DNA of 45,740 nt, from IMG/VR virus record IMGVR_UViG_3300049827_000336, positions 1-45,740 of that record. One strand, given 5' to 3'. The position numbers were made by a program, and so were the translations under genes. Below are positions 22,551 through 43,077 of the stretch, one piece after another (positions within the stretch are counted from its first letter, which is position 1; every line of letters begins with the position of its first letter). Origin of the DNA: a virus. The notes beneath the pieces are model-generated. The model worked only from the letters and a program-made list of their open reading frames with translations. It made no database searches and was not told where the DNA came from.

Positions 22551-22903
22551 TGGCAACAAATCCATTGTTGGCTTTGTTTCAAGCGCAGGCGGGGATACAG
22601 AACTCGGGGATGAGTCCGCAAGAAGCCTCGGTATACATACCACAAGTTCTGCCACAACTTGCACCCCTTTTTCAGTCAGCGGCAACACCGGCAGCATCCG
22701 CGCCGAAACCGCAGATGCAGCTGCCGGCGGCAGCAACGGTGCAAGCTCCTCGGTTTGAGCATATTCCATTTCCCTCAGGGAAGGGTGCGACCCCCGGAGC
22801 AACGCCGCAACAGTTTGCACCGCCCACGCAACAGACGGGTCGGCAGATCGCCTCCGCGGCGAGTCCTTGGGCTAACATGCTTTATGGAGCGACAGGAAAA
22901 TGA
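22550..22903 (+). CDS. Small Pro/Gln/Ala-rich protein
   Basis: 117 residues, ATG overlapping the preceding TGA. A short helical N terminus (NPLLALFQAQAGIQ) precedes a disordered Ala/Pro/Gln-rich body. Probably an internal virion or assembly factor coupled to the ejection-protein gene that follows; no motif seen. Confidence 0.65.
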   Translation: MATNPLLALFQAQAGIQNSGMSPQEASVYIPQVLPQLAPLFQSAATPAASAPKPQMQLPAAATVQAPRFEHIPFPSGKGATPGATPQQFAPPTQQTGRQIASAASPWANMLYGATGK

Positions 22904-25328: not shown

Positions 25329-28300
25329 ATGCCTTATGATGTAGAACTGCCAGACGGAACCCTGATAACCGACATTCCTGATGATGTGGATCAGAAGACG
25401 GCTCTTACAAAGATGGGGAGGAAGGATCCGCGGATAGCGAAATTCGCCCCGAAGACAGAGCTTACTTCACTCCCCGGACTTATCTCGATCGGAACGGCAG
25501 TTAAGCGGAGTGTGGGAGAACTTGGCCTGGCAGGAGCTTCGTCGGCGATTGAAGAGCCTGCGGTTGCCGCCGAGCAATCTCGCACAACGCAGCCTTGGCT
25601 CGAGGCATTACAGCGGAAGTATAATCCCTTTTACGAAAATGATCCGGCAATTGATGCTATGGTCGGAGCCCCGACTGATCCAGCGCGGCAGGAGTTGGCT
25701 GGAATGCGGAAGGAGTTTGTTAAGGGCAATCAACAAACGGCTGCGGTTAATCCGTCGCTTAATCTAGGGATTGTTCAGGGGACGGCGCAGAACTTTGTGC
25801 AGCAAGCGCCGGGGTTACTTGCTTCTGTCGCTAGTGGAAATCCGGCATTCGCGCTGGGGAACGCGGCCATCACGACGCAGATGTCTGGGCAGGAGCAAGC
25901 GATTGAGTCCGGTGTGGGGGCGGAGCAGGCAGCAGCGTCGGGTGCATTGCAGGCGATTCCGGAGGTAGCATTCGAGCTTTGGCCGATGGGAAAGTTGCTG
26001 AAGGAACTCGGAACGGATGCGTTTGTGAAGATGGCGGCGAAGTTTGTATTGCGGGAGGAAGTGACGGAACTCCCCACGACGGCGGCGCAGGAGATTATCA
26101 AGCTAGCGGTGGAGCGACCGGGGGAGTCGATGGCGACATTCCGGCCTCGACTGGTGGAAGCGCTGAAGGATACGGCTATACAGACGCCGTTTTCAGCCGG
26201 CGTAACCGCGGGAGCGGCAAGGGGACTGTATGAACTGGGCGGGAATACCGCTCCGATTATGGGGGATAAACCGCGCAATGTACCCCCACCTCCATCTTCA
26301 GTCGCCCCGACACCGGCTTCCGTAGTCGACGGAACCCTTCCAGTCGAGGACGGAGCGGAGACCTTTGTTGACTCCGAGCGGGGACGATCGCTGATTGACG
26401 CGCTAGACACCGTACCGGAAGAAGCAATCGCAGCCGTCATTCCTCCTGCGCCGGTGCAAGTTATTCCCGCCACGCCGTCGGGAGCCGCACTCGCCGCCGA
26501 CATCAATACTATCGTCGGGGCAGACATTGGAGAGTTCGGGCAAAGCCGTAAGGCAGCGGATAATGCAGTCAACTATCCCAATCCGAATAATGCGATTCCT
26601 CGGGGCGAACGCATTATCACGATTGGGCCGGAGGAAACTGTCGGCCAACCGTTACAGTCTATTGACTGGAATTCCGTTCCTCCAACGACGGTAACACTTG
26701 GGAAAGACACACTCGATCGTCCAGGATTCTGGATGAAGGGGGTGGCGAATATTACGGAGGCGCTGCGTTCTACCTTCATGCCGGATGCGACGTTCATTAT
26801 CTCGAATGAGCAGATTCCGAATGACGCATCTGTCGGCTGGCATTATGCCACCGGACGACCGAATACTTACATGATCGTGCCGGCTGCGTTGAGGAGGATT
26901 GGAGAACAGGCGACGAGGCAGTTCAATCCGAAAACACTGGTTAAAGCCTTTTATAACGTCTTTCACGAGTTCGGGCATGCATTGCTTGTGCATAGGATGT
27001 TTGAAGGGATGTCGCCGGAGTCACAAAAGGTGCTGCGCGGAAACGCTCACATTTCGGAAATGACGCCGGAAATGTTGGCTGAACTCGCCGCGGTGAATCC
27101 GAAGGCAGCGGCTGTCGTCCAAGATTGGCAGAATCGGGTGAGTCGAGTCCACGATGGCTCGATGACGGCGAAGGAATTTATTGCCACTTGGTGGGGGGCG
27201 ACGAAGGTATATCACAAGGGACTCGAGGCGGAACTCGCCCTCGGGCCGAATGCGTCGGCGCTGGATCTTGTGCGGGCTGTAGCGTTTAATAGTATTCAGC
27301 GAGAGCAGGACAAAAGTGGCATGATGGATCAGGTGTTCGGCGATCTCGTTAAGGAGAAGATGAGGCAGTACCTCTCGCTGGACGAGTTCGTTGCGGAACA
27401 AACGGCGAGGTATGCGCGGGACGTAGGAGCGGATATAACCTCCCCCTTCTTTCAAGATGCCTTGGCTAAGATGCGGGCATTTTTCCGGCAGCTGAAGCAG
27501 GGCATCCAGGCGCCGGACGGGACGACGTACTCGCTTGCCGCGGGGACAACGTTCAAGGAATGGATTGAAAGCATGGGGAATATGAGGAAGGGACTCAACT
27601 CCATGCGGGATGCGAGGATTGAGGCGAAAAAGGCGCTGACGGTGAAGGGGGTGAAGGTAGCGGCGAAGGCGAGGAAGGCGAAACCGCAAGCGCCGCCGAA
27701 GGAGAAAAAGGTTGCAGTCCCGAAGGATGTTTCAACGCAGGCAGCAACAATGCTCGGGATCGTGGATTCGATTGCCCCCTCTGGCGAGACGAATGATAAG
27801 ATTCGGGAGCTGATTGCGAAGGGGCGGTACGATGCTGCAGCGGATTTGCTTGCCCAGGCAATGGAGGGAAAGGTTCAGTGGGAGACGGATGAAACTTTCG
27901 AGGATGTGATTGACCCGCTGGAAGAGATCAAGGCAGAGGACGCGGCGATCGTCGATTTCATCTCGACGAATATGCCGAAGTATACGAGGGAGGATTATGA
28001 GCTTAGCACCCAGGCTTGGATCCTTCCGAATGGGGAGTTGAGGGAGCGGAAGTTCCACCATATGCCGGACGCGATGTGGACTATGCGTTCACTCGCCGCG
28101 GGGGAGCCAGTCGAACGGAATGCGCTGGAATCGACGAAGGAGTTCTTCGATTCGAAGATGACTGATGACATGTGGGATAGTCTGAGGCGAGTATTGAACG
28201 CTGGAGTTGTTAGGCAGACGGGAGGGGCCTTTTCCTTCGGAGACATGCCGCCGACAAGTGCGCAGATAAATACCATCTTGGATCGGGCGGCGGCCAAAGG

Positions 28301-31300
28301 TATGGCCTGGATTACACTCGAGTCTTCGGATAACTCAGCAATGACGTTTTCGATTATGAAGGAAACGGAGGTTATTCGGGGGGCAAGGAATTTGTCGAAG
28401 GAATCGCGGGAGAAGCTGGTTAAGCAGATGGAGTTGTATCTGCTATCCCCGCGGGTGGAAAATGTGATATCCGAAGTTCGGGCGAAAGCCCCGTGGTTTA
28501 AGCTGGAGTCAATCAAAGCTTGGAATGAAATGCGGGAGAAGTCTCCATTCCTCATCCGTTGGTTTGGGGATTGGATTCGTTTCCCGGAGTCGGCATCGAA
28601 GGTCGTAACGCATGATGGAGTACCGTTGACAGTATTCCACGCTGCGCCGAAGGGGAATTCCACCCTCCAATTTGGGGATATTGGGTATCACTTTGGGACG
28701 GCGCATGCCGCTGGAGCCAGGCAACACGGAGCGACGCAAGGGGTGGATTGGACGGTAAGGCCGTATTATTTAAGCATTAAGAAGCCGCTGGATATTGGGT
28801 CCGAGGGAGCGACGAATATCTGGGCTGAGCCGATGACGCTGGCGCTACACATTGCTGGCTTGCCGAATTCGCCGATCACAATGGAGGAGGTTTCACGCCT
28901 CATATCCGTTGGGAATCCGCAGTCGCAGGCGACGATGTACGAGGATTTCACGCCGTTGCGGGAGTTGTTGAGGGCAAAGGGATTCGATGGAATCAAATAT
29001 AAGAATGAGGTTGAGGGTGGAACATCTTGGGTAGCCTTTGACCAACCACAGGTTAAGCGTGCCGGCGGGGTCAACACGACCTTCTCGAGTTCACGAAGTG
29101 TGAACTGGGAACAGGGTGATGATTTCGACTTGACGACGGAAGAAGGCCAGGCTTCGGTGGATATGCTGAGCCGACTGAAACGGATTGGGCTGAACGTGCC
29201 CTGGATGCGGGAGGCATTGCGCCGGCGGTCGAAACTCGCCGCCCACGTTTTGCAGGGGCAGCAACTTGCCCAGCTCAACCCGGACTCCTTACCCTTTGCG
29301 AAAATGCGTGACTGGGCCGATCGGTTCGCACAGAAGAAATCATCATTCCTCATGATGCCGAAGGAGTTGTTGGACTGGGTTCGAGATCTTGGGAAAGAGA
29401 CTACGGCGAAGTTTTACGACATATTGCAGGAAGAGGCAAAGGGAAAGACGCATACCCTGACGATAATGGAAAGGGTTCAAGGGCGGGGATGGGTTCATCA
29501 GGTGAATCCTGCGGCTCATGACATTTTGCGAAGGGCAGGGATTTCCGAGGACCGTCTTGAGGAAGTGTATAAGCATATCCTAATGGAAAAGCAATCTATT
29601 ACGGACCTTATCAACTACGCCACGAATGTGCTTGCGGATAGGTATTTTCAAAAGTACAACGGGACTATGACGCCGGAGGAACTTCGTCGGAAGGTCATTA
29701 TGGAGGTGAAGGATCCACTGGATGTGTTTGCGCAAACGCCGTTTGTTCCAGAGACAAGCTTCGGCTCCGCGGCGGTGATTGTGGAAGAAAAGAAAGCGAA
29801 TGGAGCCTGGACGCCGATTTGGAAGCGAATGTTTGAAAGTGACATTAAGGCGGAAGCGGCACTAGTCGATTGGAATAGGCGTTTAGCCGGCAAGCCAGAT
29901 CTCCGGGTGGTTTCAAAGACAAGAATTCCGGAAAAGATCGGCGTGCTGATGAATTTGCCGAAGGAGTTTCTCGATGTTGCGGCGGAACAGTTGGGATTGA
30001 CTCTGGATGAACGACTGCAGCTCGAAGCCCTCCTCGTTCCAACAAAGATTGACAGGGTGACGGAACGGTTCCTGCAAAGGCTACCCGGCGCAACGAAGGA
30101 CCATATGAGGAATTATGCCGACTGGATGTGGCATACGACGAACGCTTTTACGAAGATGGAGTACGCTGGGAAGTTTTCGGAAGCCATCCGGCAAATGGGT
30201 AGTGATGTGAGATTGGCTCGTCAGATTGAAGATCCGATTATTCGCTTTCACGAAGAGCGGAGGCTTTCAATGCTGGAATGGTTCATGCGGCATCAGAAGG
30301 AATATATCCTCAATCCGCCGAATGAATATCAAGCGCTTAGAACAAGTGTGGCATTGTTTTACCTATGGGCCATGCCAAAAACGGCGCTGATGAATATGTC
30401 CTCGCTAATTTTCACGGCAACCCATCTGTCGGCGAAGCACGGACTGGTTGACGGAAATGTGAGGTTGGCGAAAGCGGTGGAGGAAGCAGCGCTATCTGTC
30501 GCCCCAACGAAGCTGCAGAAGGTGGATGAAGAACTCGCGGAGATGCTGCAAAAGGCGATTGATGAAGGATTGATTTCGGAATCGTATGCTTATCACGTTG
30601 CGGCTATAGCGAATAATGGGACGCTGTCGCGGCTGCCTTCGTCAAATCGCGCGGTTGCGTTTAAGGATAAGGCGCTTGAAGTTGGTATGTTCGCCTTTCG
30701 TGCAGTCGAGCACGGAACTCGTCGGGTGACCTTTATCGCCATGTATCATGAAGGACGGGATAGTGGGATGGCACCGGAGGAGGCCTATGCATATGCTTAC
30801 AAAATGACGAAGGCGCAGCAGAACTCGTATAACCCCTTCGATCGACCGGTAGTTATGCAGGGGGGACTTGCCCCCTTCACTATTTTCTATTCTTTCCTCT
30901 CACACTTTACATTCCACGCGCTAGGTGGATATGAAACAGGGCAGAAGCGGATGGCCCGCTTGCAGGGGGTGAGGGCGCCATCATCCTGGTTTGGATATAC
31001 GATGCAATTGCTTCTTATTGTTGCCCTCATGTCGGGGTATGAGGGACTGCCTGGAGCGGAGAGCATTTTGAACCTGCTTGACCCAATATTCCGCCGGCTG
31101 TTTGGAAAGCCTGCCCGACAATTTGCGCGGGAAGGGATGCAAGAGGTATTCGACGGCCTGGGTATTAATGCAAGTCCATCTTGGGCGGCGCATGGAGCCC
31201 TCAGTTCCGTCGGCTTGTCGCGGAGTTTTGGCTTTGGTAACATTGTCCCTGGAGCAGACTTCTTTAAGGAAGGGGATAACGAACGGGAATCAATTGCGAA

Positions 31301-31877
31301 CCTTGGCTTGGGATTGATGGGTCCGCTTGGAGGCGTTGTCGCTTGGGCAGCTTCGCCATTACTAAGTGACCGTTCATTTGAGGAAATTGTGAAACGAACT
31401 CCTGGCATCATGGGGCATGTAGCGACAGCTGTGGACTGGAGCATGAATGGAGCGAAAGGACCGGTGGGAGAAAGCCTTATGGTGGATGAAGCGGGAAATC
31501 CAGTTGAGCCGACTGCGGGACAAATTGCCTTGCGTGGCATGGGGTTTCAGAATCCGCAGGTTCTTGAGCGGCGGGAAATGCAGTTTGCACAGCTCGCCGC
31601 GAAGAACTATTGGAGTACTCGCCGGTCGGGACTGATGAAGGATTATGCGAAGGCGAGAGTAGAGCAAGATCGAGAGGCGATTGCGGATGCCAAGCTCGCG
31701 GTGAAGGAGTTTAACGAAGGGCTGCCGGAGAATTGGCGAGCCCTTCGTATCCGCGGAGAGCAGTTATCGAATGCGTTTATGGCCCGCCGGCAAGAGATTC
31801 GGGCAAGAGAATCTGGTCGGCCTCGGCAGCAAATGTATCGGGAAGTGTATGAGGAGATTGAATCTTTGTATGAATGA
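25329..31877 (+). CDS. Giant multidomain virion protein with protease and ART-like domains
   Basis: 2182 residues, the largest gene, placed where podoviruses encode the ejected internal protein (T7 gp16 position). N terminus MPYDVELPDGTLITD. A metallopeptidase-like HEFGH (HExxH) lies at residues 546-550 within FYNVFHEFGHALLVH. A Lys/Ala/Pro linker follows near 765-800. Residues about 1085-1245 resemble the ADP-ribosyltransferase-like domain of phage polyvalent proteins (VTHDGVPLTVFHAAPKG; IGYHFGTAHAAG; FDGIKYKNEVEGG; VAFDQPQVK). Long helical regions follow, and hydrophobic segments near 1850-1915 could span membranes. AAGGAG precedes the ATG. Likely injected with the DNA to act on the host; the enzyme activities are predicted from motifs only. 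Confidence 0.82.
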   Translation: MPYDVELPDGTLITDIPDDVDQKTALTKMGRKDPRIAKFAPKTELTSLPGLISIGTAVKRSVGELGLAGASSAIEEPAVAAEQSRTTQPWLEALQRKYNPFYENDPAIDAMVGAPTDPARQELAGMRKEFVKGNQQTAAVNPSLNLGIVQGTAQNFVQQAPGLLASVASGNPAFALGNAAITTQMSGQEQAIESGVGAEQAAASGALQAIPEVAFELWPMGKLLKELGTDAFVKMAAKFVLREEVTELPTTAAQEIIKLAVERPGESMATFRPRLVEALKDTAIQTPFSAGVTAGAARGLYELGGNTAPIMGDKPRNVPPPPSSVAPTPASVVDGTLPVEDGAETFVDSERGRSLIDALDTVPEEAIAAVIPPAPVQVIPATPSGAALAADINTIVGADIGEFGQSRKAADNAVNYPNPNNAIPRGERIITIGPEETVGQPLQSIDWNSVPPTTVTLGKDTLDRPGFWMKGVANITEALRSTFMPDATFIISNEQIPNDASVGWHYATGRPNTYMIVPAALRRIGEQATRQFNPKTLVKAFYNVFHEFGHALLVHRMFEGMSPESQKVLRGNAHISEMTPEMLAELAAVNPKAAAVVQDWQNRVSRVHDGSMTAKEFIATWWGATKVYHKGLEAELALGPNASALDLVRAVAFNSIQREQDKSGMMDQVFGDLVKEKMRQYLSLDEFVAEQTARYARDVGADITSPFFQDALAKMRAFFRQLKQGIQAPDGTTYSLAAGTTFKEWIESMGNMRKGLNSMRDARIEAKKALTVKGVKVAAKARKAKPQAPPKEKKVAVPKDVSTQAATMLGIVDSIAPSGETNDKIRELIAKGRYDAAADLLAQAMEGKVQWETDETFEDVIDPLEEIKAEDAAIVDFISTNMPKYTREDYELSTQAWILPNGELRERKFHHMPDAMWTMRSLAAGEPVERNALESTKEFFDSKMTDDMWDSLRRVLNAGVVRQTGGAFSFGDMPPTSAQINTILDRAAAKGMAWITLESSDNSAMTFSIMKETEVIRGARNLSKESREKLVKQMELYLLSPRVENVISEVRAKAPWFKLESIKAWNEMREKSPFLIRWFGDWIRFPESASKVVTHDGVPLTVFHAAPKGNSTLQFGDIGYHFGTAHAAGARQHGATQGVDWTVRPYYLSIKKPLDIGSEGATNIWAEPMTLALHIAGLPNSPITMEEVSRLISVGNPQSQATMYEDFTPLRELLRAKGFDGIKYKNEVEGGTSWVAFDQPQVKRAGGVNTTFSSSRSVNWEQGDDFDLTTEEGQASVDMLSRLKRIGLNVPWMREALRRRSKLAAHVLQGQQLAQLNPDSLPFAKMRDWADRFAQKKSSFLMMPKELLDWVRDLGKETTAKFYDILQEEAKGKTHTLTIMERVQGRGWVHQVNPAAHDILRRAGISEDRLEEVYKHILMEKQSITDLINYATNVLADRYFQKYNGTMTPEELRRKVIMEVKDPLDVFAQTPFVPETSFGSAAVIVEEKKANGAWTPIWKRMFESDIKAEAALVDWNRRLAGKPDLRVVSKTRIPEKIGVLMNLPKEFLDVAAEQLGLTLDERLQLEALLVPTKIDRVTERFLQRLPGATKDHMRNYADWMWHTTNAFTKMEYAGKFSEAIRQMGSDVRLARQIEDPIIRFHEERRLSMLEWFMRHQKEYILNPPNEYQALRTSVALFYLWAMPKTALMNMSSLIFTATHLSAKHGLVDGNVRLAKAVEEAALSVAPTKLQKVDEELAEMLQKAIDEGLISESYAYHVAAIANNGTLSRLPSSNRAVAFKDKALEVGMFAFRAVEHGTRRVTFIAMYHEGRDSGMAPEEAYAYAYKMTKAQQNSYNPFDRPVVMQGGLAPFTIFYSFLSHFTFHALGGYETGQKRMARLQGVRAPSSWFGYTMQLLLIVALMSGYEGLPGAESILNLLDPIFRRLFGKPARQFAREGMQEVFDGLGINASPSWAAHGALSSVGLSRSFGFGNIVPGADFFKEGDNERESIANLGLGLMGPLGGVVAWAASPLLSDRSFEEIVKRTPGIMGHVATAVDWSMNGAKGPVGESLMVDEAGNPVEPTAGQIALRGMGFQNPQVLERREMQFAQLAAKNYWSTRRSGLMKDYAKARVEQDREAIADAKLAVKEFNEGLPENWRALRIRGEQLSNAFMARRQEIRARESGRPRQQMYREVYEEIESLYE

Positions 31878-32070: not shown

Positions 32071-33313
32071 GGCCAGTTGCGGACACTATTAGTTGTCCGC
32101 CCTCATTTTTGACCGTAACGTGGCCGGCTTGAATAGCTGACTTAAGCGCGACGGAGAATTCATCAGCTGACATAAGGCGAAAGACCCGTTGGTAGAGGTC
32201 ATTGTGATTGACGCGAAGAAGGTGGTGGACAATCTCGACAATTTGCGTGGAATGGCGACTTTCAACCGTCTGGCCGATCCGGGCGAAGACGCGATTGAGC
32301 GTGGGCTCGAGGGAAGATACGATGTCAGTGGCGGTGGATAACTGTTCACGGGTTATGGATAAGGTATTCCCGGCGCTCGCGCAAAGGATCATGGCGAGTT
32401 TGTGGATGTGCGTTTGCTTCCGGGCGAGGTAGCCGCCGAATTGCTCTTGGGATAAGTTGGGTGGAGGATTTTTCCAGTGATGAGAATACCACGATCGGCC
32501 CCATTCGCGGGCCGGCTGCGATATCTCAACCTCGCCGAATAGCGTGGATATTGCCTCGAGGTCGTGGATAAGGGTCTTTTGCAGATCGAGGAAATCTCCT
32601 GGAGTTGCTTCATCGGGATAGGCAACTTCCTGACGTTTGGTATCTGCGTAGACGAATACGCAACGGGAGGTGAAGCCGCCGCCAATGAGATACTCGGGAA
32701 AGTTACCGGATATCCAGGCAGGAGTGGTACAACCGATGAAGTTGATCCACGGATTATTCACCACTTCCTCTCCTCCGCCTTTAGTTAGTTTCCGTAAACT
32801 TCCTTTCTTTCCATCCCACAGGGTGACGAGTAAATCCACCATGTCACGGTCTTGAGGGTTGAGAAAGTTGCCGAGTTCGTCGCTGGCAACGGTAAGGGAG
32901 GACATGGATAGGAATTCCCCGGTGTTGGGGTCGACGACTTCCTCTGACGCCCCAGCGAATGCGGTGACAAGGGCCTGCCACGTCACTACATCTGGACCGA
33001 AGTGAATGCCCTCGACTTCACGGAGAAGGTTCATTCCGATATTGGCGGTTGTTGACTTGGATATAATACCCGGCGGAGCGACGAGGATGATGTAAAAGTT
33101 CGCGAGCCACTGGAAATACTTCATGTCGATGAAGACTTGACGACGTAGCGCGCCGGCAATGGTAGAGACTCCCGTCCACATAAGGGTGGATATTGGGGCT
33201 TCGCCGTGAGATGCGTAGTCAATGAAGGAACGTAGCCAGTCTTCATGATAACGAGTTCCGTTGACGCGGCGGACGAAAGGTGGTGCGGCGAGGCTAGGGC
33301 CATTGGCGTCCAA
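32060..33313 (-). CDS. DUF3987-like P-loop replication protein
   Basis: 417 residues from TTG 33313, supported by GGGGAG 6 bases upstream and a 20-base overlap with the polymerase C-part. Around residues 79-97 ILVAPPGIISKSTTANIG is a degenerate P-loop (SKST in place of GKS/T). SLTVASDELGNFL is a Walker B-like segment with conserved acidic residues, and FIGCTTPAWISG fits a sensor strand. This arrangement resembles DUF3987-type proteins of phages, considered helicase/primase-associated. It sits at the end of the replication cluster. Whether it hydrolyses ATP is uncertain because of the altered P-loop. Confidence 0.7.
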   Translation of the reverse strand: MDANGPSLAAPPFVRRVNGTRYHEDWLRSFIDYASHGEAPISTLMWTGVSTIAGALRRQVFIDMKYFQWLANFYIILVAPPGIISKSTTANIGMNLLREVEGIHFGPDVVTWQALVTAFAGASEEVVDPNTGEFLSMSSLTVASDELGNFLNPQDRDMVDLLVTLWDGKKGSLRKLTKGGGEEVVNNPWINFIGCTTPAWISGNFPEYLIGGGFTSRCVFVYADTKRQEVAYPDEATPGDFLDLQKTLIHDLEAISTLFGEVEISQPAREWGRSWYSHHWKNPPPNLSQEQFGGYLARKQTHIHKLAMILCASAGNTLSITREQLSTATDIVSSLEPTLNRVFARIGQTVESRHSTQIVEIVHHLLRVNHNDLYQRVFRLMSADEFSVALKSAIQAGHVTVKNEGGQLIVSATGHGI

Positions 33314-34040
33314 CGCATTCTCCCCAGGATTTATTTGAAGCTTTTAACCCCCACGGAATCGTGAGGGGATCTTCATATGGGATAGGAATGGAGATGAGAG
33401 GGAGAAGGGCGGCTAAGGTTTCGTCAAGGATGCGGGACGGAATTTGAATAACGAGGGAATCATGGACTTGAAGCAGGACTTCAGCGGGGATGCCGGACTC
33501 GTCGATGTTGAGCCAGGCGTAATTGGTAACACAGGCAACGGTGGATTGAGGAACCCAAGCAAGGGCTTCGTTAAAGACGGCGTCTGGCCGGTCGAAGTAT
33601 AGGCGGCGATATCCGAAGGGATTTCGGACAGAATGGGTGGAGGCAAGGTCGGACTTTACGCGCTCATGCCAGCGAAGAATACCGGGATGAATGGAGAACC
33701 AGCGGGCTTGGAAACGCTCGGCTTCGTGTATGGTAATGCCGAGGGCGGAGGCGACGGTGCGAGCCTTAGCGCCGTAGTTTGTGGCGTGGACGCCGACTTT
33801 CGCGCGGGTGTAGTATGGTTCACGCTTTCCGTCGGGGCCGGCGACTGGGCCGAAGATGTCGATGGCGTTGAGGGCGTGGACCTTTTTCCCCGACCGAAAC
33901 TTGGCCTTCAACGCCTCATCTCCGGATTCCCATGCGACGACCTGAGCGTCGGCACCGGCTTGGTCAATGTCGATGAGGGTGTATCCGGGGTCAGGGATGA
34001 ACATGGCCCGGAGGTTGGGTAAGTTAGCGACTGGGATCAT
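33294..34040 (-). CDS. DNA polymerase family A, C-terminal (palm/fingers) part
   Basis: 248 residues carrying the polymerase catalytic motifs: motif A TLIDIDQAGAD (catalytic D26), motif B RAKVGVHATNYG (79-90) and motif C QVHDSL (H193, D194). It starts MIPVANLPNLRAMFIPDPGY, the point where a single-chain family A enzyme would continue from the NLQNIP segment found at the end of the gene at 34084-35667. The two parts are in different frames, separated by a stop and 43 bases. The ATG at 34040 overlaps the stop of an 11-codon minicistron (ATGA). The active enzyme presumably forms from two chains. Confidence 0.85.
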   Translation of the reverse strand: MIPVANLPNLRAMFIPDPGYTLIDIDQAGADAQVVAWESGDEALKAKFRSGKKVHALNAIDIFGPVAGPDGKREPYYTRAKVGVHATNYGAKARTVASALGITIHEAERFQARWFSIHPGILRWHERVKSDLASTHSVRNPFGYRRLYFDRPDAVFNEALAWVPQSTVACVTNYAWLNIDESGIPAEVLLQVHDSLVIQIPSRILDETLAALLPLISIPIPYEDPLTIPWGLKASNKSWGECVGRQWP

Positions 34041-34072
34041 GCTTTTTCTCGCTTAAGTAAATCCTTGTCCAT
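34037..34072 (-). CDS. 11-codon bridging minicistron between polymerase parts
   Basis: ATG 34072 with AAAGGA 8 bases upstream encodes MDKDLLKREKA, and its TGA overlaps the ATG of the polymerase C-part. It lies in the third reading frame relative to both polymerase parts. The Shine-Dalgarno begins right after the TAA of the N-part. The arrangement looks like a translational-coupling device; it may also be chance. Confidence 0.4.
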   Translation of the reverse strand: MDKDLLKREKA

Positions 34073-34083
34073 TTTATTTTCCT

Positions 34084-35667
34084 TTATTCAGTGCGGGGGA
34101 TATTCTGCAAATTACCTCCGCTACCAAATGCATCTTCTGATGAGGATAAGCGGAAGGTCTCTGCTCCGGCTGGGTTAAACGATGACCTCATTCGGTTATC
34201 GCTATCCAATGGCATCTTGATGAAGGTGTTAAGGAATACTCCCATAGACCGCATTTGCAGGATCGTTGTGATGAGGTCATGGATGAGGGGCTCCTTCCGG
34301 GCGAGAACGGTAAGGGACTTTTCGTCCAAGGAGGGCATACCGGATTTACGATGGCGCTGGACAGGGAGCTTCAAGTCGTCATAGAAAAAGGCCTTCATTT
34401 GTTTCGGGGAGCTAACGTTAAGTTCAAATCCTGCGACGAAGTTGATAAGGGCTTGATGTTCGGTGATGGAGGAAAAGACTTCGCCGGCGAGTCGAGCACG
34501 GTAAGGACGGTCGATATTAACGCCCCGGAGCATGGTTTTGAATACTGGCCTGGAGGTGAACTTCATTTGTAATTTGTACTGTTCGACCAGCCCGGCTTGC
34601 TTGAGGGCGGTAAAAAGTACTGGCATGATTTCGAAGGTGCGACAACAGTCGACGGTATTGTAGTTCCAGAACGCATGAATATCGACTGGATATCGGTGGT
34701 AATCCTTGAGATCATCCTTCCAGTAAATGTGATTCTCACAGTACATGGAGGAGAGGAAATCAAGTGACTTTTGCATTCCGGGAAACAAGACAGACTGGGC
34801 AATCATCGTATCGTCAGTATGGTTTGGATTAATCCCGAGGTGCTTGGCGAAATGCTGACGATCATAAAGGCCGTTTTGCCAGATGACGGGGACAGTTGTG
34901 AGTATATCCTGGATGGAAAGGATGATGGCAGCTTCTTGTTCCGCGGACCAATAGGGGGTGCCGCCTCGACCGGCAAAGGGGATACATATAGCCTCCGTCG
35001 GTGACCAGGCAAGGCCGAGACAAGCGATATGTCGAGCGATCGTTTCGATGTCAGCAGCGACTTGACAACGCTTTTCGAAGATAAGATCAAGGGTGTCCAT
35101 GACGACTGCATAGCTCGGCTCGATGATCGCGTTGATAGCGTAAGGTTTGATCTCCGGGAACATTTGTTCGCGCTTACATCGCCGCAAGTCATGAACGGTT
35201 ATGTTTCGCCACTCGTACATGCGGAAAATGGCGAGGGGGGAGTATATGGGAATGACCTTAAGGTCAGGGACCAGCGTACAAGGCATGGTTGACCCGCGCC
35301 AGTTGCCAATGGCGTGCTCGCCGGTGAGGGCCCATAAAGCTGTTCGTCCAGCGGCGATGATGAGGTTCGGGCGAATGCGCTCGAGGAGTTCCTTAAGGTC
35401 AGCCATGCCGGATGCGACTTCAGGGCCAGGCTTTGTCTGGGACTTATCGAGGAAGAAGTGGGCAATGTCTCCGTTCGGCGGGCGAGTGGGGCAAACGTGA
35501 GTGATTGTGATATCCGAGCGGAGGATACCTGCCTCGTGAAGCATGGAGGTGAGGAAAGACCCGGCGGAGCCGGAGAATGGCTGACCGAAGCGAACGTCAT
35601 CGTCAGTTGGAACTTCCCCGACGAGGACGATTTTCGCCCCGGAGACAATAACCGGGGCGACTCTCAT
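34084..35667 (-). CDS. DNA polymerase family A, N-terminal part: UDG-like domain, 3'-5' exonuclease and thumb
   Basis: 527 residues. Residues 1-165 resemble a family 4-type uracil-DNA glycosylase domain (VLVGEVPTDDD near 14-24; VCPTRPPNGD near 58-67; IAAGRTALWALTG near 104-116). The 3'-5' exonuclease motifs are Exo I ADIETIA (D206, E208), Exo II WQNGLYDRQHF (N265, D269) and Exo III YNTVDCCR (Y336, D340). The chain then runs through the thumb and ends TFRLSSS (504-510) and NLQNIPRTE (519-527), exactly before where motif A should come, and stops at TAA. The palm is encoded by 33294-34040. UDG-like fusions to phage polymerases are known, but this split is unusual. Confidence 0.85.
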   Translation of the reverse strand: MRVAPVIVSGAKIVLVGEVPTDDDVRFGQPFSGSAGSFLTSMLHEAGILRSDITITHVCPTRPPNGDIAHFFLDKSQTKPGPEVASGMADLKELLERIRPNLIIAAGRTALWALTGEHAIGNWRGSTMPCTLVPDLKVIPIYSPLAIFRMYEWRNITVHDLRRCKREQMFPEIKPYAINAIIEPSYAVVMDTLDLIFEKRCQVAADIETIARHIACLGLAWSPTEAICIPFAGRGGTPYWSAEQEAAIILSIQDILTTVPVIWQNGLYDRQHFAKHLGINPNHTDDTMIAQSVLFPGMQKSLDFLSSMYCENHIYWKDDLKDYHRYPVDIHAFWNYNTVDCCRTFEIMPVLFTALKQAGLVEQYKLQMKFTSRPVFKTMLRGVNIDRPYRARLAGEVFSSITEHQALINFVAGFELNVSSPKQMKAFFYDDLKLPVQRHRKSGMPSLDEKSLTVLARKEPLIHDLITTILQMRSMGVFLNTFIKMPLDSDNRMRSSFNPAGAETFRLSSSEDAFGSGGNLQNIPRTE

Positions 35668-35870: not shown

Positions 35871-37151
35871 CTAGATGTCGATAGACAGGGACTTGATTCG
35901 CTCGGCGCAGATGTTGGCGTAGGCATCATTAGGCTCAATCCCGATAGCAACGCAGGACTGAGCGTCTGCTGCAGGGAAGATGGGGCCGGAACCTGCGCAC
36001 GCATCCAGAATGATATCGCCGGGGAGTGCGGAACGAGACAGCAGATCTATGTACAGGGCAACTGGTTTCGCCGCCCCGTGATCTTCAGCTTCAGCGGGGA
36101 TTGGGATCACGTCGGATTTGATGAGGTTGACCCGGCGATTTCCCTTAATGGCGAAAAGGATACACTCATACATGCGGCGAGGACCGTGTTCGGGCCAAGG
36201 AAGCATCCCCCGGTTCTTCGCCCAGATGAGGGGAGTCGGCCAAACTCGCCAGCCGGCAAGCTCGAACATTCCAGTGATTGAGGCAAAATGGCGAATGTCG
36301 AGGAAAAGGTAGGCGTGGGCACCGGCTGGAGATGCGAGCCGGGCAAATTCCCCCGCGAGGAAATCATACCGCTTAAGGGCAGATGCCTCGTCGTCGACGT
36401 ATGCGTGTTCGGTTGAAGCCTGGGAACCAAACTCATCCGCACCGACGCCGTAAGGAGGGTCGGTGATGAAGACTGCGATGTTGGGAGTAATGATGGGTAA
36501 GAGGTCTTCGCAACGACCTTTGTATAACTGATGAGGGGAGGCGGCTGGATTGAACGAGGCGGCGAGATCCGCTCGTTTTTCCGCGAGCAAGCGTTTCCGT
36601 ACAATCTTTTCCGCTTCCTTAAAGGAGGTTGCTTTCCTCACTTCCGGATCGTCAAGGAATGGTTTGAGTGCGATGGCGGTCGAGACGTTTGTGATTTGCT
36701 GACCTTCGGCCGGGGAACCTTGGATCTCACTCGCCGTCGCGCGAAGAGTTTGCGTAGGGTTCTGGGCTTTGCGCAGATCGTGCAGGCGGTTCACGGCCTC
36801 GATGTGTTCGATGAAGGGGAGGTCCACGCGAATGACGTTTTCAGCGAGCTCGAGCTCGAGCGCATGCAGTGGGTCGATTTCGCCGAAGGTGGTGATGGGA
36901 ATTGAGCCCGGCGGAATGCGGATATCGCCGCAAGTAAAGGCAATGTTTTTGACTACGAGCTGCTCAATCGCTCGCATTCGCCGTTCGCCGGATACCAGCA
37001 TCCATTGTCCATTCTCCCGCCGAGCAACGGGCGGATTCTGCAAGCCGAAGTGGGCAATGCTTGAAGCAAGTTCGTTAAGCTTGCCCTGATCGAAGGTCCG
37101 TCGCATACGGTAGTCCGGGACGATTAGTTCTGATAGTTTAATGATTAGCAC
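35871..37151 (-). CDS. ParB-like nuclease domain fused to DNA methyltransferase
   Basis: 426 residues from GTG 37151 (GGAG 7 bases upstream). The N terminus has ParB-type sequence (LIVPDYRMRRTFDQGKLNEL; MLVSGERRMRAIEQL at 51-65). The C-terminal half is an N6-adenine/N4-cytosine methyltransferase: DPPYG at 231-235 (motif IV), then an AKPVALY motif X-like segment (361-367) and the SAM-binding DACAGSGPI at 383-391 (motif I). The order IV-X-I is that of the circularly permuted beta class. Such ParB-MTase fusions occur in phages and probably modify phage DNA against host restriction. Recognition sequence not predictable. A terminator separates it from the preceding gene. Confidence 0.87.
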   Translation of the reverse strand: MLIIKLSELIVPDYRMRRTFDQGKLNELASSIAHFGLQNPPVARRENGQWMLVSGERRMRAIEQLVVKNIAFTCGDIRIPPGSIPITTFGEIDPLHALELELAENVIRVDLPFIEHIEAVNRLHDLRKAQNPTQTLRATASEIQGSPAEGQQITNVSTAIALKPFLDDPEVRKATSFKEAEKIVRKRLLAEKRADLAASFNPAASPHQLYKGRCEDLLPIITPNIAVFITDPPYGVGADEFGSQASTEHAYVDDEASALKRYDFLAGEFARLASPAGAHAYLFLDIRHFASITGMFELAGWRVWPTPLIWAKNRGMLPWPEHGPRRMYECILFAIKGNRRVNLIKSDVIPIPAEAEDHGAAKPVALYIDLLSRSALPGDIILDACAGSGPIFPAADAQSCVAIGIEPNDAYANICAERIKSLSIDI

Positions 37152-37971: not shown

Positions 37972-38797
37972 TGCGTTTTCTCCATAGCTCAATAACGGGC
38001 TTGAAGTTCGGCGCAAGGTTCGCAGCAACAGGCAGGGCGCGAGTCTTGAGGTCGGCCCGGATGGACTCCGTGTTCCAGGACCACTTGGCTCCGTACCGTT
38101 CACACAGGATAACGTCGGAGAAGTATCGAGGAATCTTTGGAGCAAGCTTTCGTCCGATGGTCGAGGGCATGAGCTTCTGCCCGCCGGACAGTTCATCCCC
38201 CTCCATCTCGAGGTGGGCCGTCATCACCGCCATAGTACGAATGCCGGTAGTGAACTTTGTGATGTAGGCCTCGAGGTTCGTCATGGCAATACCGTAGTCG
38301 GGTTGGGCCTTGACTGGCTGGGCGCCAACGACAAGGTTCATTGCCATCTGAGAGATTCCGGACAGGGAATCATTCACGACGCACCAGGTTGAGTCGAGTT
38401 CATCCGTTGGTCCGAAAGTTTCTCCGCACCGGTCGCAAGTGAAGTTTGACATGGCGGTAAGGAACCTCCACCACTCGTCATACTTTCGCTTGTTGATGTC
38501 GCGCTGTTTTGCCAGCATCTCCATCGACATGGTGTTGATTTTCTTAGCAACGTCCAACAGGACCTCCCAGTCCGGAGCTGATGGCGGAATGTAGGTGAAG
38601 TGGAATCCATCGGAGCAGGGGATGTCGGCCAAGACTTCCTGCCCCGGCTCGGTGAAGATGGCGGCGACCTTCATGCCGGCCTCAACGATTGTTCGGATGG
38701 AATGTGTCTTACCGCTGCCGCTACCACCGACAAGCAGTTCCTTCGGTCCAGGGATGATGATGCGAGAGGGAGAGTTCATTGTGATTAATCGCTCCAT
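37964..38797 (-). CDS. P-loop ATPase, RecA/Sak4-like recombination candidate
   Basis: 277 residues. Walker A GGSGSGKT at 24-31 follows the strand KELLV. Later ELDSTWCVVNDSLSG looks like a Walker B strand, and MAVMTAHLEMEG fits a downstream sensor strand of RecA-like ATPases. A Cys pair CDRCGETFG (about 120) may be half of a zinc site. Flanked by an Fe-S nuclease and an SSB-like protein, it fits a phage recombination or DNA-repair module. ATG 38797 overlaps the gene before it; a second ATG at 38779 just after that stop is an alternative start. Confidence 0.78.
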   Translation of the reverse strand: MERLITMNSPSRIIIPGPKELLVGGSGSGKTHSIRTIVEAGMKVAAIFTEPGQEVLADIPCSDGFHFTYIPPSAPDWEVLLDVAKKINTMSMEMLAKQRDINKRKYDEWWRFLTAMSNFTCDRCGETFGPTDELDSTWCVVNDSLSGISQMAMNLVVGAQPVKAQPDYGIAMTNLEAYITKFTTGIRTMAVMTAHLEMEGDELSGGQKLMPSTIGRKLAPKIPRYFSDVILCERYGAKWSWNTESIRADLKTRALPVAANLAPNFKPVIELWRKRNG

Positions 38798-39132
38798 TTA
38801 CTTTGAATAATCCGTGCGTTGTTCGTCGCCCACTCATCATACGCAAAATGCAGGCGAACCTCACGGTCCCAGAAATTACTGTCGAACGCTTTCATCATCT
38901 CCGGCTCGTTCCACACTAGCAGCGAACCGGCGTAATCCAGAAAGCGACTGGGGCCGCACCTGTCGCAGGATACGGATAAAGGATACCATCTCCATTCCGT
39001 CGTGATGAAGATGCGACCCCATAGCTCCCCGCATTGCGGGCAGACCATCGCGTAGTTACACTTCCACCTATCGGAGAAGAAGGTAGATTCTCCCACCTTC
39101 GTCATTCCGATGAAAGCTGATGCCGTTGCCAT
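38785..39132 (-). CDS. Zinc-ribbon protein
   Basis: 115 residues from ATG 39132, which overlaps the preceding TGA (TGATG). Two CxxC knuckles, VCPQCGELWG and SCDRCG about 30 residues apart, predict a zinc ribbon; the rest is Trp-rich (WRWYPL; WNEPEMMKAFDSNFWDRE). Lies between the nuclease and ATPase of the recombination module, so a DNA-binding accessory is plausible. Confidence 0.75.
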   Translation of the reverse strand: MATASAFIGMTKVGESTFFSDRWKCNYAMVCPQCGELWGRIFITTEWRWYPLSVSCDRCGPSRFLDYAGSLLVWNEPEMMKAFDSNFWDREVRLHFAYDEWATNNARIIQSKWSD

Positions 39133-40034
39133 CACTCAATCCGAACGAGGGGTTCCCAATACCTGACGACGTAATCCGCCAGCCAACGCTCGGGTTCAGG
39201 CGAAAGGCAAGCATTGCGGAATCCGCATCCGCCGAAGTCATTACATGCATGGTCAAGCGCCATATCCCACTCGCCCCGCTGGTACGATTGAATCATCGCC
39301 TTGATGTCGAGGAGGAGTTGCTTATGCCACTGGGCAATGCGCCAGTCAGGGCGGTAAGTGATGACTTGAGCGAATTTCGTTTCGTACTTGAGCAAGCCAA
39401 CACCTCGGATAATCGCACCAAGGACGGGGTATCCGTACTCGCGGGCCGCCCAACAATAGCCCGTGAATTGGCTTGCCATTTCCCACTGAGATGCCCATTG
39501 TGCGCCGAGGGCGGAAGTTGTCTTCTCGTCCACGACGAAAAGGCTGTCGTTGAAGACGCCGAGGAGGTCGAAGCGACCGCCGTAGATGAGGGGATCGCCA
39601 GTCTCGGGATTAAGGATAGGCTTGCCGTCCGTATCCTCGAGCGGAAGGGCGAAGGTGAACTCGACCGCGGGATCTCCGTTAGCCTCGATGAATGGCTGAA
39701 TAACGTCAGTCGCAAGGGGGTATTCAAGAAAGTACGCGTCGAGCGCAGACAACATTCGCGCCATGGACTTGGTGTGGTCAGCGGGAGCTTCGTATTCGCC
39801 CCAAGCATGGATTAACGCTGTCATACCTTTTGCCCGGGCCTCGTCATGCGTAAGGTGCTCGGCGTGGAAGGCACGCCGAGTGATCTCCACCCCGCGGGCG
39901 AAGCAAGCCCCTGCGTGAAGGTGGATGGAAAGGGTGGGCGGGGATAAGCCGTCGAAGTATGCGAGTTTGGCTTTTGTCGGGCACTTGATGAAGGCGGCTC
40001 GGAGGGTGTTGTCGATGATAGGTGGAAAGCGCAT
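39132..40034 (-). CDS. PD-(D/E)XK nuclease with AddB/Cas4-type Fe-S cysteines
   Basis: 300 residues. Nuclease core: GGRFDLLGV (D156), FVVDEKTTS (D169, E170, K171) and QFTGY (Q189), the RecB/Cas4 family arrangement. Four cysteines have the Cas4/AddB spacing: C18 in FIKCPTK near the N terminus and C264, C270, C276 near the C terminus (HACNDFGGCGFRNACLSPE), expected to hold a 4Fe-4S cluster. Probably an exonuclease producing single-stranded ends for the neighbouring ATPase and SSB-like protein. Start ATG 40034 is taken because the upstream extension overlaps the preceding gene; no strong ribosome site is visible. Confidence 0.87.
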   Translation of the reverse strand: MRFPPIIDNTLRAAFIKCPTKAKLAYFDGLSPPTLSIHLHAGACFARGVEITRRAFHAEHLTHDEARAKGMTALIHAWGEYEAPADHTKSMARMLSALDAYFLEYPLATDVIQPFIEANGDPAVEFTFALPLEDTDGKPILNPETGDPLIYGGRFDLLGVFNDSLFVVDEKTTSALGAQWASQWEMASQFTGYCWAAREYGYPVLGAIIRGVGLLKYETKFAQVITYRPDWRIAQWHKQLLLDIKAMIQSYQRGEWDMALDHACNDFGGCGFRNACLSPEPERWLADYVVRYWEPLVRIE

Positions 40035-40038
40035 GATG

Positions 40039-40239
40039 TTAGAGTCCCAGGGCAGCGTCGAGATCGGCCATAATGACCTGTTCATTAATGGGGGATTTTC
40101 CTTTCCGCTTTGCTGCTGTTTCCGCGGAGGAAATCCGTCCGGAGCGAAGCTGATTTACTACTTGTTGCGCAAGTTCGGGGGTGAGTTGCTCCCCCGCCAG
40201 GACGCGAATGCGAAGGTCGTCAAGGTCGATTGGGGTCAT
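40039..40239 (-). CDS. Small helical protein opening the recombination operon
   Basis: 66 residues, AGGA 7 bases before the ATG. It is the first gene after the promoter at 40272-40300. Helical with basic patch (AETAAKRKGKSPINEQVIMA). No recognised family. Confidence 0.72.
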   Translation of the reverse strand: MTPIDLDDLRIRVLAGEQLTPELAQQVVNQLRSGRISSAETAAKRKGKSPINEQVIMADLDAALGL

Positions 40240-40271
40240 GGGAGGTCCTTTCAGTTGCCGGATGAATTCCC

Positions 40272-40300
40272 ACCATACACCGTGGGGATAAGGTTGTCAA
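40272..40300 (-). promoter_or_regulatory. Early/middle sigma70 promoter of the replication-recombination operon
   Basis: Minus-strand TTGACA (plus 40295-40300), 17-nt spacer, -10 TATGGT (plus 40272-40277). It reads into 40239 and on through nuclease, ATPase, SSB-like and polymerase genes. The -35 region is GCTTGACAACCT, as at 880-908. Confidence 0.83.
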
Positions 40301-40441
40301 GCATTACTTTTCAAGAACAGGTAAGGGGTGCCAGCTTGTTGGCTTCCCTGGCTGGCGGCAGGGCGTGGAGAAGGGAGTCACACCCCTCCGTGGGGGCAGT
40401 ACGGAACCAACGCCTCTGTCTCACGGCCTTTGACATTTGGG
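40301..40441. other. Non-coding leader between interrupted gene and promoter
   Basis: About 140 bases without a credible gene. Contains the dyad ACCCCTCCGTGGGGG near 40383-40397, which on the minus strand could form a hairpin after the end of the upstream operon. No U tract. Confidence 0.4.
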
Positions 40442-40690
40442 CTAGCCCTCGTTATAGGAGACGAGGATGACGGAGGTTGAGATGATCTCGCCACTGTCCG
40501 TGGTGCCGAGGTATGTGACCTCGACGTTCGACGGGGAGGAGGCCCAGTCGCTGTACCAATCTTTGACAGGCCGTCACCAGCCGGATGGATGGAGATTCCG
40601 TGCGGTGTCCTCGTCCGGCGCATAGACAACGGCGGAGTTGTAGGTGTCGTAGTCTTCGTTTTCAGTTTGGCTAATGAGGTAAATATTCAT
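40442..40690 (-). pseudogene. Early gene with in-frame TGA at codon 39 (pseudogene or readthrough gene)
   Basis: ATG 40690, with AAGGA 8 bases upstream and five bases after the preceding stop, opens an 82-codon frame. It is interrupted once, by TGA at plus 40574-40576. Before it the product reads MNIYLISQTENEDYDTYNSA and ends NLHPSGW; after it, in the same frame, come KDWYSDWASSPSNVEVTYLG and VILVSYNEG to a TAG at 40442. Both halves look like one protein, of a small phage family whose members I recall starting MNIYLISQ and ending VILASFNAG. The TGA context is TGG TGA CGG. TGA is the normal stop in many other genes here, so the code is not reassigned. A point mutation, sequencing error or programmed readthrough (Trp insertion) would each explain it. 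Confidence 0.75.
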
Positions 40691-40694
40691 GGCT

Positions 40695-41063
40695 TTATCC
40701 TTCAGTTGTTGAACGGAGAATTTCAAGGGAGTTACGCAGGGTGGTCAGCTGGGCGCGCAGCCGCTCGTTTTCGTCGCGCAGTCGGCGAACTTCGGCGACG
40801 ACTCTAGCGAACTCCTTTGCACGCGCATCGGCAACAGTGCGCCAGAACTCCACTTCCTGACGCAGCGCGTCGACCTCGGCCAGCAGCCGTTCATTCTCGG
40901 CCCGCAGCCGTTGTGCTTCTTTGCAAATGGGGGTCCCGCCTTCGTCACCAACCACGTTCGGGCACTGATGGGCTGCGAGAGCGAAGTTCTCGACCCGCAG
41001 CCGCTCGATCTCGACGGCGGCATTCCCCATCAGGTCGCCATAATATTCGATTAGGGTGTTCAT
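40695..41063 (-). CDS. Leucine-zipper-like coiled-coil protein
   Basis: 122 residues, nearly continuous heptads from residue 15 onward (AVEIERLRVENFALAAHQ; RLRAENERLLAEVDALRQEV; RRLRDENERLRAQLTTLRNS). A Cys pair lies in the middle (HQCPN, PICKE). It overlaps the previous gene (ATGA). Likely a dimeric or trimeric scaffold or regulator. It follows a membrane protein whose tail is also coiled coil, so they may pair; this is inference. Confidence 0.75.
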   Translation of the reverse strand: MNTLIEYYGDLMGNAAVEIERLRVENFALAAHQCPNVVGDEGGTPICKEAQRLRAENERLLAEVDALRQEVEFWRTVADARAKEFARVVAEVRRLRDENERLRAQLTTLRNSLEILRSTTEG

Positions 41064-41251
41064 CTTTGATTCCCCTCAAGGTATTTGATTCGTGCCTTCA
41101 TCGACTCGACTTCCCTCTCCGCGACAAGGGCACGGTGGGCGAAATTTAGAATTTCGTCCAGCCGTGTAGCGATGGCGAGGACCAGCATCAGACCCAGGGC
41201 GGAGAGGGTGACTATCGTGGGGACAATCCAGACTAGGTGGAAAGTGTTCAT
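41060..41251 (-). CDS. Small membrane protein with coiled-coil tail
   Basis: 63 residues; one transmembrane helix at about 5-29 (LVWIVPTIVTLSALGLMLVL) followed by a charged helix (HRALVAEREVESMKARIKYL). An N-terminal span plus coiled-coil tail is the topology of inner-membrane spanin-like proteins, though it is short. ATG 41251 overlaps the previous TGA. Confidence 0.68.
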   Translation of the reverse strand: MNTFHLVWIVPTIVTLSALGLMLVLAIATRLDEILNFAHRALVAEREVESMKARIKYLEGNQR

Positions 41252-41361
41252 CAATATCCCTCCATATCCCGATCTACCCGGTTAAGCACCAGGCGAATAG
41301 CGATCAGTACGACGAACAGCAGGGCGGCAAGCGAGCCTAGGGTAATGAGGAAGCAGGTCAT
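41251..41361 (-). CDS. 36-residue membrane miniprotein
   Basis: ATG 41361 to TGA 41251, overlapping neighbours at both ends (ATGA and TGATG). The product MTCFLITLGSLAALLFVVLI continues AIRLVLNRVDRDMEGY: one transmembrane helix with a short charged cytoplasmic tail. Size and cluster position are compatible with a small holin or antiholin component or an inhibitor of a host membrane protein; unproven. Confidence 0.6.
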   Translation of the reverse strand: MTCFLITLGSLAALLFVVLIAIRLVLNRVDRDMEGY

Positions 41362-41441
41362 GCCAGCACCTCCGTCTCGGTGATGCCCGGTTCCTTGATA
41401 GTTAGGCTGTCTTGCTCGATAACTACTTGGTATAGGTTCAC
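41358..41441 (-). CDS. 27-residue miniprotein
   Basis: GTG 41441 overlaps the preceding TGA (GTGA) and its own TGA overlaps the next ATG (ATGA). Product begins MNLYQVVIEQDSLTIKEPGI and ends TETEVLA. Double overlap and exact fit in the gap favour a real gene. Function unknown. Confidence 0.5.
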   Translation of the reverse strand: MNLYQVVIEQDSLTIKEPGITETEVLA

Positions 41442-41635
41442 TTGTGCATCCTCAGCGCGTTCTCGATCCCAGCGATCAGTTCCCTGGCGTTGAAAGCGCC
41501 GATTGTGGCGCCGTTACACTCCAGAATCACCCGGTCGCCCCAGTTCCAATGGTTGCGGATGCTTAGCAGACGCACGTCTCGCGCAAGACTGCTTGCCTCT
41601 TGTAGTTCGCGTAGGGTAGTTACGACTTCGGCCAT
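41438..41635 (-). CDS. Small early protein
   Basis: 65 residues from ATG 41635, which overlaps the previous TGA. Helix (LRELQEASSLARDVRLLSIR), then a strand pair (GDRVILECNGATIGAF) and final helix. Looks folded; no family recognised. Part of a chain of overlapping early minigenes. Confidence 0.68.
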   Translation of the reverse strand: MAEVVTTLRELQEASSLARDVRLLSIRNHWNWGDRVILECNGATIGAFNARELIAGIENALRMHK

Positions 41636-41805
41636 CACAACACCTCCACGATGTAGTAGAGCAGGAGAAGCGTTCCGACTACGATCCACGGCAGCAGCCG
41701 CATCGCCTTGAGTTCCGCGCTTTCGTAGGGGCCGAAGACGGCCTGGCCGTCGTGGGGCAGGCGATCGGACATCTTCTCGAAGTACAAGGTACGCCTATGG
41801 TTCAT
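41635..41805 (-). CDS. Small C-tail-anchored membrane protein
   Basis: 56 residues from ATG 41805 with AGGAGAAGGA upstream. A polar N-terminal 35 residues (MNHRRTLYFEKMSDRLPHDG) precede one C-terminal transmembrane helix (LLPWIVVGTLLLLYYIVEVL). Third small membrane protein within 600 bases. Overlaps both neighbours. Confidence 0.68.
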   Translation of the reverse strand: MNHRRTLYFEKMSDRLPHDGQAVFGPYESAELKAMRLLPWIVVGTLLLLYYIVEVL

Positions 41806-41927
41806 TTCCTTCTCCTGGAACAGTCGAGGCAGATACGAATCCGTTTTCGCCCTGCGCTCGGAATAAACTTCCAATGCGATCCGTAGAGGCTAAAGATACG
41901 CTTACACTGTTGGCATTTCCAAGTCAC
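41802..41927 (-). CDS. 41-residue zinc-finger miniprotein
   Basis: GTG 41927 overlaps the methyltransferase TGA (GTGA), and its TGA overlaps the next ATG (ATGA). The product has WKCQQCKRIFSLYG and IRICLDCSRRRK: two CxxC pairs 24 residues apart with a very basic C terminus. That predicts a minimal zinc ribbon able to bind nucleic acid. The coupling, the metal-site pattern and the exact fit make it a convincing small gene. Confidence 0.72.
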   Translation of the reverse strand: MTWKCQQCKRIFSLYGSHWKFIPSAGRKRIRICLDCSRRRK

Positions 41928-42667
41928 GCGCCTTCCCTCCGCCGGAAGATCCAGTCAAGTCCGGCAAGGTACCGCTCATTAGGGAAGCGTGCAACCAGTT
42001 CCAGTCCGCACTTGTCGGCGAGGATCAGCATCGACCGGCGAGTGAAGATGTGGTAGTGTTCAATCTCTGCCCAGTAGGGGTTCTCCCCACCGAGGCCTTT
42101 GAACACTGGACTGCTCCCGTCGGGGGTGGAAAGGATGAGGGTTCCATCGGGGAGCAGTGACTGCAGTACCCCCTTCAACCACCCCTCGGGATTGGGGAAG
42201 TGCTCAACGACATCTCCCATGAGGATGATGTCGAACTTGGGCCAGTCGTCGCTGATCTTCGATTTAGCGAAGGGCGCACTGACTCCGAGGGTATTGAGGG
42301 CTTGTAGCACCGCCAAACGATTATCGACGAAGTAGGCAGTGCAGCCCAGGGCCTCCGCGGCGAAACCGGCGGCTCCGCTGCCGCAACCGAAGTCAAGGAT
42401 AGAACCGCGGGATGCTCCGCTCATTGCGAGGGTAAGTGCCCACTTCGGGATTTGCCCGCCAAGGGTTTGCCACTGGGGCAACTCATGAGGGAGGGTGTTG
42501 GCCTTGGCCAGCGCGCGGTCGAAGCCGCTGACTTCGGCGAAGTGGCCGCAGCTTGTACACTCCGTCCATTGGAGGGAGTGTGGACAAGCTTTGCTCCACA
42601 TCGGGTGGCGAGTGCAGTTGAAGCTAACCGCCGGATGTTGAGGCTGATTGCATATGGGGCAAGTCAT
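41924..42667 (-). CDS. SAM-dependent class I methyltransferase with N-terminal zinc knuckle
   Basis: 247 residues. The N terminus has CPIC and later ECTSCGHFAEV, consistent with a zinc-binding module. A Rossmann methyltransferase follows: ILDFGCGSGAAGF (about 90-102, SAM-binding motif I), an acidic VDNRL (motif II), IILMGDVVEHFPNPEGW (motif IV-like), and STPDGSSPVFK. It resembles the Methyltransf_23-type small-molecule, lipid or sugar methyltransferases rather than DNA methyltransferases (no DPPY). Substrate not predictable. Lies in the early minigene operon, so it may alter host metabolism or surface. Confidence 0.78.
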   Translation of the reverse strand: MTCPICNQPQHPAVSFNCTRHPMWSKACPHSLQWTECTSCGHFAEVSGFDRALAKANTLPHELPQWQTLGGQIPKWALTLAMSGASRGSILDFGCGSGAAGFAAEALGCTAYFVDNRLAVLQALNTLGVSAPFAKSKISDDWPKFDIILMGDVVEHFPNPEGWLKGVLQSLLPDGTLILSTPDGSSPVFKGLGGENPYWAEIEHYHIFTRRSMLILADKCGLELVARFPNERYLAGLDWIFRRREGA

Positions 42668-43077
42668 TCGAGGTCCTCTTGCTTCCGCTCCCAGCGCTCA
42701 CGAGCATACTCGTCCGCCAGGGCGCGGTCCTTCTCGGCCCGCTTGGCGAGCTCCTGCTGCACCCATGCGTCGGCTCTGCGACAGAAGAGCAGGTTGCGCA
42801 GCTGATGAGCCAAGGCAATCAATTGATTCTCCACCATTTCCACGTCGGGCGCGGTGGTTTCCGCTGCTTGTTGCGTGGCGGCTATCAGCGAGGCGAGGAG
42901 CGCGAGGTCCTCTTCGGCATTCAGGTCGAATTGCTCAGCAATTACGGACTGCGCTAACTTCGGGTCCCGCAACCACTCCGCAGCGTGGTTCTCAGCCTCT
43001 TCCTCGAGGGCTTCCTGCGCCTCGGCCTCCTCGCAGGCGTCTTGATACGGCTGCTCCAGCCAGTTGTCATAGCTCAT
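42664..43077 (-). CDS. Acidic helical early protein
   Basis: 137 residues, AGGAG before the ATG, overlapping the methyltransferase start. The N terminus is extremely Glu/Ala-rich (DACEEAEAQEALEEEAENHA) and the remainder forms long charged helices (LAKRAEKDRALADEYARERW). Highly acidic early proteins sometimes act as DNA mimics; that is speculation here. Not recognised. Confidence 0.72.
   Translation of the reverse strand: MSYDNWLEQPYQDACEEAEAQEALEEEAENHAAEWLRDPKLAQSVIAEQFDLNAEEDLALLASLIAATQQAAETTAPDVEMVENQLIALAHQLRNLLFCRRADAWVQQELAKRAEKDRALADEYARERWERKQEDLE

Follow-up and report, generated by a model that had tools for sequence, protein, structure and literature searches.

The coat gene of phage Q-beta is subject to UGA readthrough. 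In bacteria, UGA followed by C is reported to be an inefficient termination signal, and RF2 frameshifting occurs at UGA-C, as described in PMC5289835. The gene described here resembles the Q-beta coat and RF2 genes in that a UGA lies inside a frame in a leaky context. In contrast to these two systems, for which the product has been shown and, in the case of RF2, the site is conserved, its stop is not shared with relatives and is known from sequence alone. The gene belongs to PHROG 5444, a phage protein family without assigned function whose members include a Gamaleyavirus gene located between two RNA polymerase genes and NVP1164O_14 of Vibrio phage 1.164.O. At the level of search listings, no literature on the family was found. 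In the Erwinia phages L012 and L013 tRNA-Trp lies close to the family gene, which in L012 is flanked by genes for tRNA-Trp and tRNA-Cys. The whole stretch of DNA analyzed here, referred to as the window, corresponds to one IMG/VR virus record of 45,740 bases. The capsid and portal proteins encoded in it gave matches to the Pfam families of phage SU10. Overall, our analysis indicates that a recent nonsense mutation probably inactivated an accessory gene of a widespread phage family.

A PHROG 5444 gene with one in-frame TGA

Translation, the PHROG 5444 profile and tblastn place the gene at 40442-40690 on the minus strand. Its 82-codon frame (83 codons with stops) runs from an ATG at 40690 to a final TAG at 40442-40444 and translates as MNIYLISQ...HPSGW*RPVKDW...SYNEG*, with asterisks marking stops. 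The translation confirms the TGA reported at codon 39 in the context TGG TGA CGG (40574-40576, minus strand), where it lies in a variable loop following an HPxG motif. It is the sole interruption, with no second stop or frameshift visible in the translated frame. A Shine-Dalgarno-like GAAGGA (40698-40703, minus strand) is found 7 bases 5' of the ATG, and the upstream gene (40695-41063, minus strand) ends 4 bases short of it, in agreement with the good ribosome site and correct neighbor spacing that had been proposed. This upstream gene encodes a 122 amino acid protein that is a probable coiled coil based on weak coiled-coil profile matches, the Pfam ones being below cut-offs. The 200-base gap following the PHROG 5444 gene contains a promoter-like site at 40272-40300 (minus strand) matching 10 of 12 positions, which represents a consensus match only.

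With the TGA read as tryptophan, the resulting protein matches PHROG 5444 over its full length (residues 1-82 of 82, E 4.7e-16, 60.4 bits). By tblastn, this protein has matches in 55 of 50,697 phage records. One of 72,556 plasmids also matches, and Pfam returned no match at E 0.01. Like other members, it contains the YDTYDSAVV, HPxG and C-terminal SFNAG-type motifs and a single tryptophan, and all six of the near-invariant family residues D15, A30, P35, W49, G62 and S78 are present. Unlike other members, it carries the in-frame TGA, and the near-invariant D18 and A81 are replaced by N18 and E81.

An alignment with 89 distinct relatives shows that codons 38-48 form a variable, gap-rich loop between two conserved halves. 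The AlphaFold2 model, based on 65 aligned sequences (pLDDT 87, pTM 0.79), is a small single domain. The proximal half (38 codons, 40577-40690, minus strand), delimited by the family HMM and the model, contains predicted strands at 2-8 and 16-24 and a helix at 27-31, while the distal half (43 codons, 40445-40573, minus strand), delimited by the family HMM, codon use and the model, contributes strands at 56-63 and 73-80. As the TGA falls between the two pairs of strands in the model, the 38-residue product would correspond to half of one small domain and, judging from this model, would not be expected to fold. A Foldseek search of the PDB with the predicted fold yielded no match at E <= 0.001, and the best Z value obtained with VIA-align 2 against 22 chains (4.3, 2hfq) is too low for a functional reading. 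A double compensating frameshift around the TGA was also considered and set aside, as relatives normally have a variable loop after HPSG and one substitution is enough.

In-frame stops among family relatives

Relatives were collected from several sources. A viral contig scan with the YDTYDS motif, which admitted either D or N at position 18, gave 165 confirmed relatives, of which 80 were kept, and a second scan with a C-terminal motif that required A at position 81 gave 97, of which 80 were likewise kept. After 36 second-scan loci were dropped because their DNA was common to earlier loci, the remaining 44 were combined with the 80 from the first scan, 7 relatives from genome contigs and 16 of the 55 tblastn-matched phage records, which were included with DNA, resulting in 147 loci encoding 126 distinct proteins. 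The scan patterns bias this sample, part of it having been drawn with motifs that constrain positions 18 and 81. All relatives are distant, with 36-50% identity in the list from the YDTYDS scan. No megablast match to window positions 38500-43000 was found in the phage collection, searches for the exact DNA pattern around the TGA found no near-identical copy, and protein-only viral contig scans with the PHROG 5444 gene and the neighboring exonuclease returned no relatives.

An in-frame TGA is absent from all 147 other loci of the family, which encode 126 distinct proteins. In 145 of them the matched stretch is free of any in-frame stop, and the remaining two, L093 and L011, each carry a TAG. 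The L011 stop is located at position 8, which is glutamine in 87% of relatives, and this copy adjoins an intact tandem copy. The tandem pair occupies 17436-18003 of Microcoleus phage L229 (OR578707.1), in which the TAG-bearing copy is unannotated. Two loci are partial matches, one near a contig end (L195) and one missing its N half (L163), neither with a stop in the matched stretch. Relatives do carry the downstream half, rather than uniformly lacking it, and the absence of the TGA from them indicates that a recent ordinary loss-of-function mutation is the most likely explanation, over a programmed translation event. The original prediction had left two readings side by side, regulated readthrough and a very recent nonsense mutation; with no TGA in 147 relatives, the second is the better supported.

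The L093 locus (IMGVR_UViG_3300028592_000099, family copy at 2001-2288) resembles the window in that its stop falls right after HPSG, in the loop that holds the window's TGA, and is followed by intact family sequence. In contrast to the window, its stop is a TAG and its second half possesses a separate ATG, at 2139, that follows a GGAGG. This near-coincidence is the only lead that deserves to be kept. The gene could accordingly be viewed as a two-chain gene split in the loop, with the second half translated from its own start, an arrangement for which the in-frame GGAGG and ATG of L093 provide a precedent. The distal half in the window contains no in-frame ATG, GTG or TTG, only ATC at codons 69, 70 and 75, so that restart there is impossible in the lack of a usual start codon, and we regard the two-chain arrangement as very improbable for this gene. 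A broader proposal, that breaks recur in the loop after HPxG, as with the TGA here and the TAG of L093, that some phages make short and long forms by readthrough or else two chains and that the 38-residue half is functional, appears quite unlikely.

Genetic code, stop context and RNA structure

Among 32 window genes chosen as confident by judgement, 15 end in TGA, 10 in TAA and 7 in TAG, which bears out the claim that TGA is used as a true stop elsewhere, and 220 TGG codons were counted. Past the 15 ordinary TGA stops the frame extends for 1-154 codons with total codon scores of at most 3.6, compared to 4.0 for the 43-codon extension past the TGA at codon 39. Larger positive extension scores are seen after three TAG stops and one TAA stop (12520-13209, 22900-23823, 35871-37151 and 13219-13656), and the extension past the stop of 12520-13209 continues in frame into the following gene. 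Reassignment, with this phage reading UGA as a sense codon, or a selenocysteine site would account for the frame remaining open past the TGA but for nothing else, and we consider it scarcely credible: the use of TGA as an ordinary stop, the low scores beyond such stops and the abundance of TGG codons argue against it, as does the absence of in-frame TGA from other genes. Furthermore, the window contains no tRNA genes and no Rfam match at gathering thresholds, and the alignment of relatives shows no cysteine at a fixed place in the TGA region. In general folding, the 68 bases including the UGA, where a bSECIS hairpin would lie, were as stable as shuffled sequences (z 0.01).

Programmed or tolerated readthrough of the UGA by a near-cognate tRNA, for example tRNA-Trp, would produce a little 82-residue protein beside a 38-residue form. 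The leaky character ascribed to UGA followed by C agrees with the description of this context as an inefficient terminator in bacteria in PMC5289835, the TGA is positioned in a freely varying loop, the distal half retains its family match and coding-like composition, and in L093, whose distal half is well kept (40.5 bits), a TAG occupies almost the same position. However, TGAC also ends three of the 15 TGA-terminated confident genes, so the context is shared with ordinary stops, and the stop is not conserved, with no TGA and one loop TAG among 147 loci, all relatives being distant. Comparing three stretches around the TGA with shuffles gave z values of 0.01, 0.10 and -1.11, revealing no unusual RNA structure, and with half of a predicted domain on each side the short form would have no obvious role. 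Positive support for the proposed pair of 38- and 82-residue forms comes only from the intact distal half and the UGA-C context, and we consider readthrough unlikely. Some probability is retained for it because a young mutation and a readthrough stop leave an identical trace in one genome.

Two further loci of the window were recorded. The family A DNA polymerase gene (33294-35667, minus strand) consists of two ORFs that lie in different frames, with Pfam DNA_pol_A matches at 9-134 and 139-350; the split leaves 43 bases between them, there is a tiny overlapping ORF, and the first ORF also encodes a uracil-DNA glycosylase domain. In the relatives L018 (802 amino acids) and L019 (928 amino acids) the polymerase is encoded by one long ORF. 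A 2182-residue ORF at 25329-31877 (plus strand) shows a weak match, below the Pfam cut-off, to a polyvalent-protein ADP-ribosyltransferase domain.

Condition of the two halves and probable loss of the gene

Using a leave-one-out family HMM built without the window sequence, we scored each half and ranked it against 83 relatives. The proximal half scores 60.2 bits, with 55 of the 83 relatives scoring lower, and for the distal half the score is 29.7 bits (E 1e-10 with three sequences searched), with 13 of 83 scoring lower. Given the proximal score, the distal deficit corresponds to a residual z of -1.2, making this half slightly weak for the family. The view that both sides of the stop code for parts of the same family protein is therefore upheld by a model that excludes the window. 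In codon use, the distal half ranks at the 16th percentile among 244 in-frame pieces and at the 95th among 732 off-frame pieces. The retained family match together with coding-like codon use indicates that this half either still codes for protein or did so until recently. The open run of 43 codons is weak by itself, with a chance probability of about 0.19 at the base composition of the window. Similarly, the lack of decay says little, as the chance of no further stop is 0.57 even at 10% neutral divergence.

At sites conserved in at least 90% of relatives, the window departs at two of 14 (D18N and A81E). Position 18 is D in 118 of 126 distinct relatives and N in none, and position 81 is A in 119 of 126 and E in none, both sites being partly constrained or fixed by the motif-based sampling. 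The two replacements are a hint of relaxed constraint in the sequence. Given that at least two departures at near-invariant sites are also found in 8 of 83 relatives, N18 and E81 represent weak evidence only. They also bear on whether the TGA might stem from faulty assembly or sequencing, or from a minority allele that entered the metagenome consensus, since N18 and E81 would require additional errors. Such an origin would be compatible with a window known from one IMG/VR record with no near-identical copy and with a gene lacking any second stop or frameshift, but where coverage is fair a consensus seldom contains a lone substitution error, and we judge an artifact to be improbable.

The PHROG 5444 gene was not found in any of 39 records with related capsid or terminase genes, many of which are fragments (nine exceed 40 kb), or in any of three records with a related polymerase, while the same search recovered it in all eight records known to hold it. 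This distribution suggests, at the level of sequence, that the gene may be a dispensable accessory gene. A second, intact copy that would make its loss harmless was not found in the window. Other broken family copies exist, namely the TAG-bearing tandem duplicate of the Microcoleus phage and the L163 copy without its N half.

Under the favored explanation, a recent nonsense mutation, a single substitution in the variable loop would have created the TGA. Ribosomes would stop there and release an unstable 38-residue half-domain, the distal half would still look intact as too little time has passed for decay, and the loss would be tolerated because the gene is dispensable. One event, a nonsense mutation in a dispensable gene, explains all observations. 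The PHROG 5444 gene as found would then be an ordinary decaying accessory gene, whereas readthrough, if proved, would make it a rare example of regulation in a small phage gene with no assigned function. The locus also carries a caution for similar candidates, as a lone in-frame stop followed by a conserved second half is how a recent nonsense mutation looks. By sequence alone, it is conservation of the stop in relatives that separates a nonsense mutation from readthrough.
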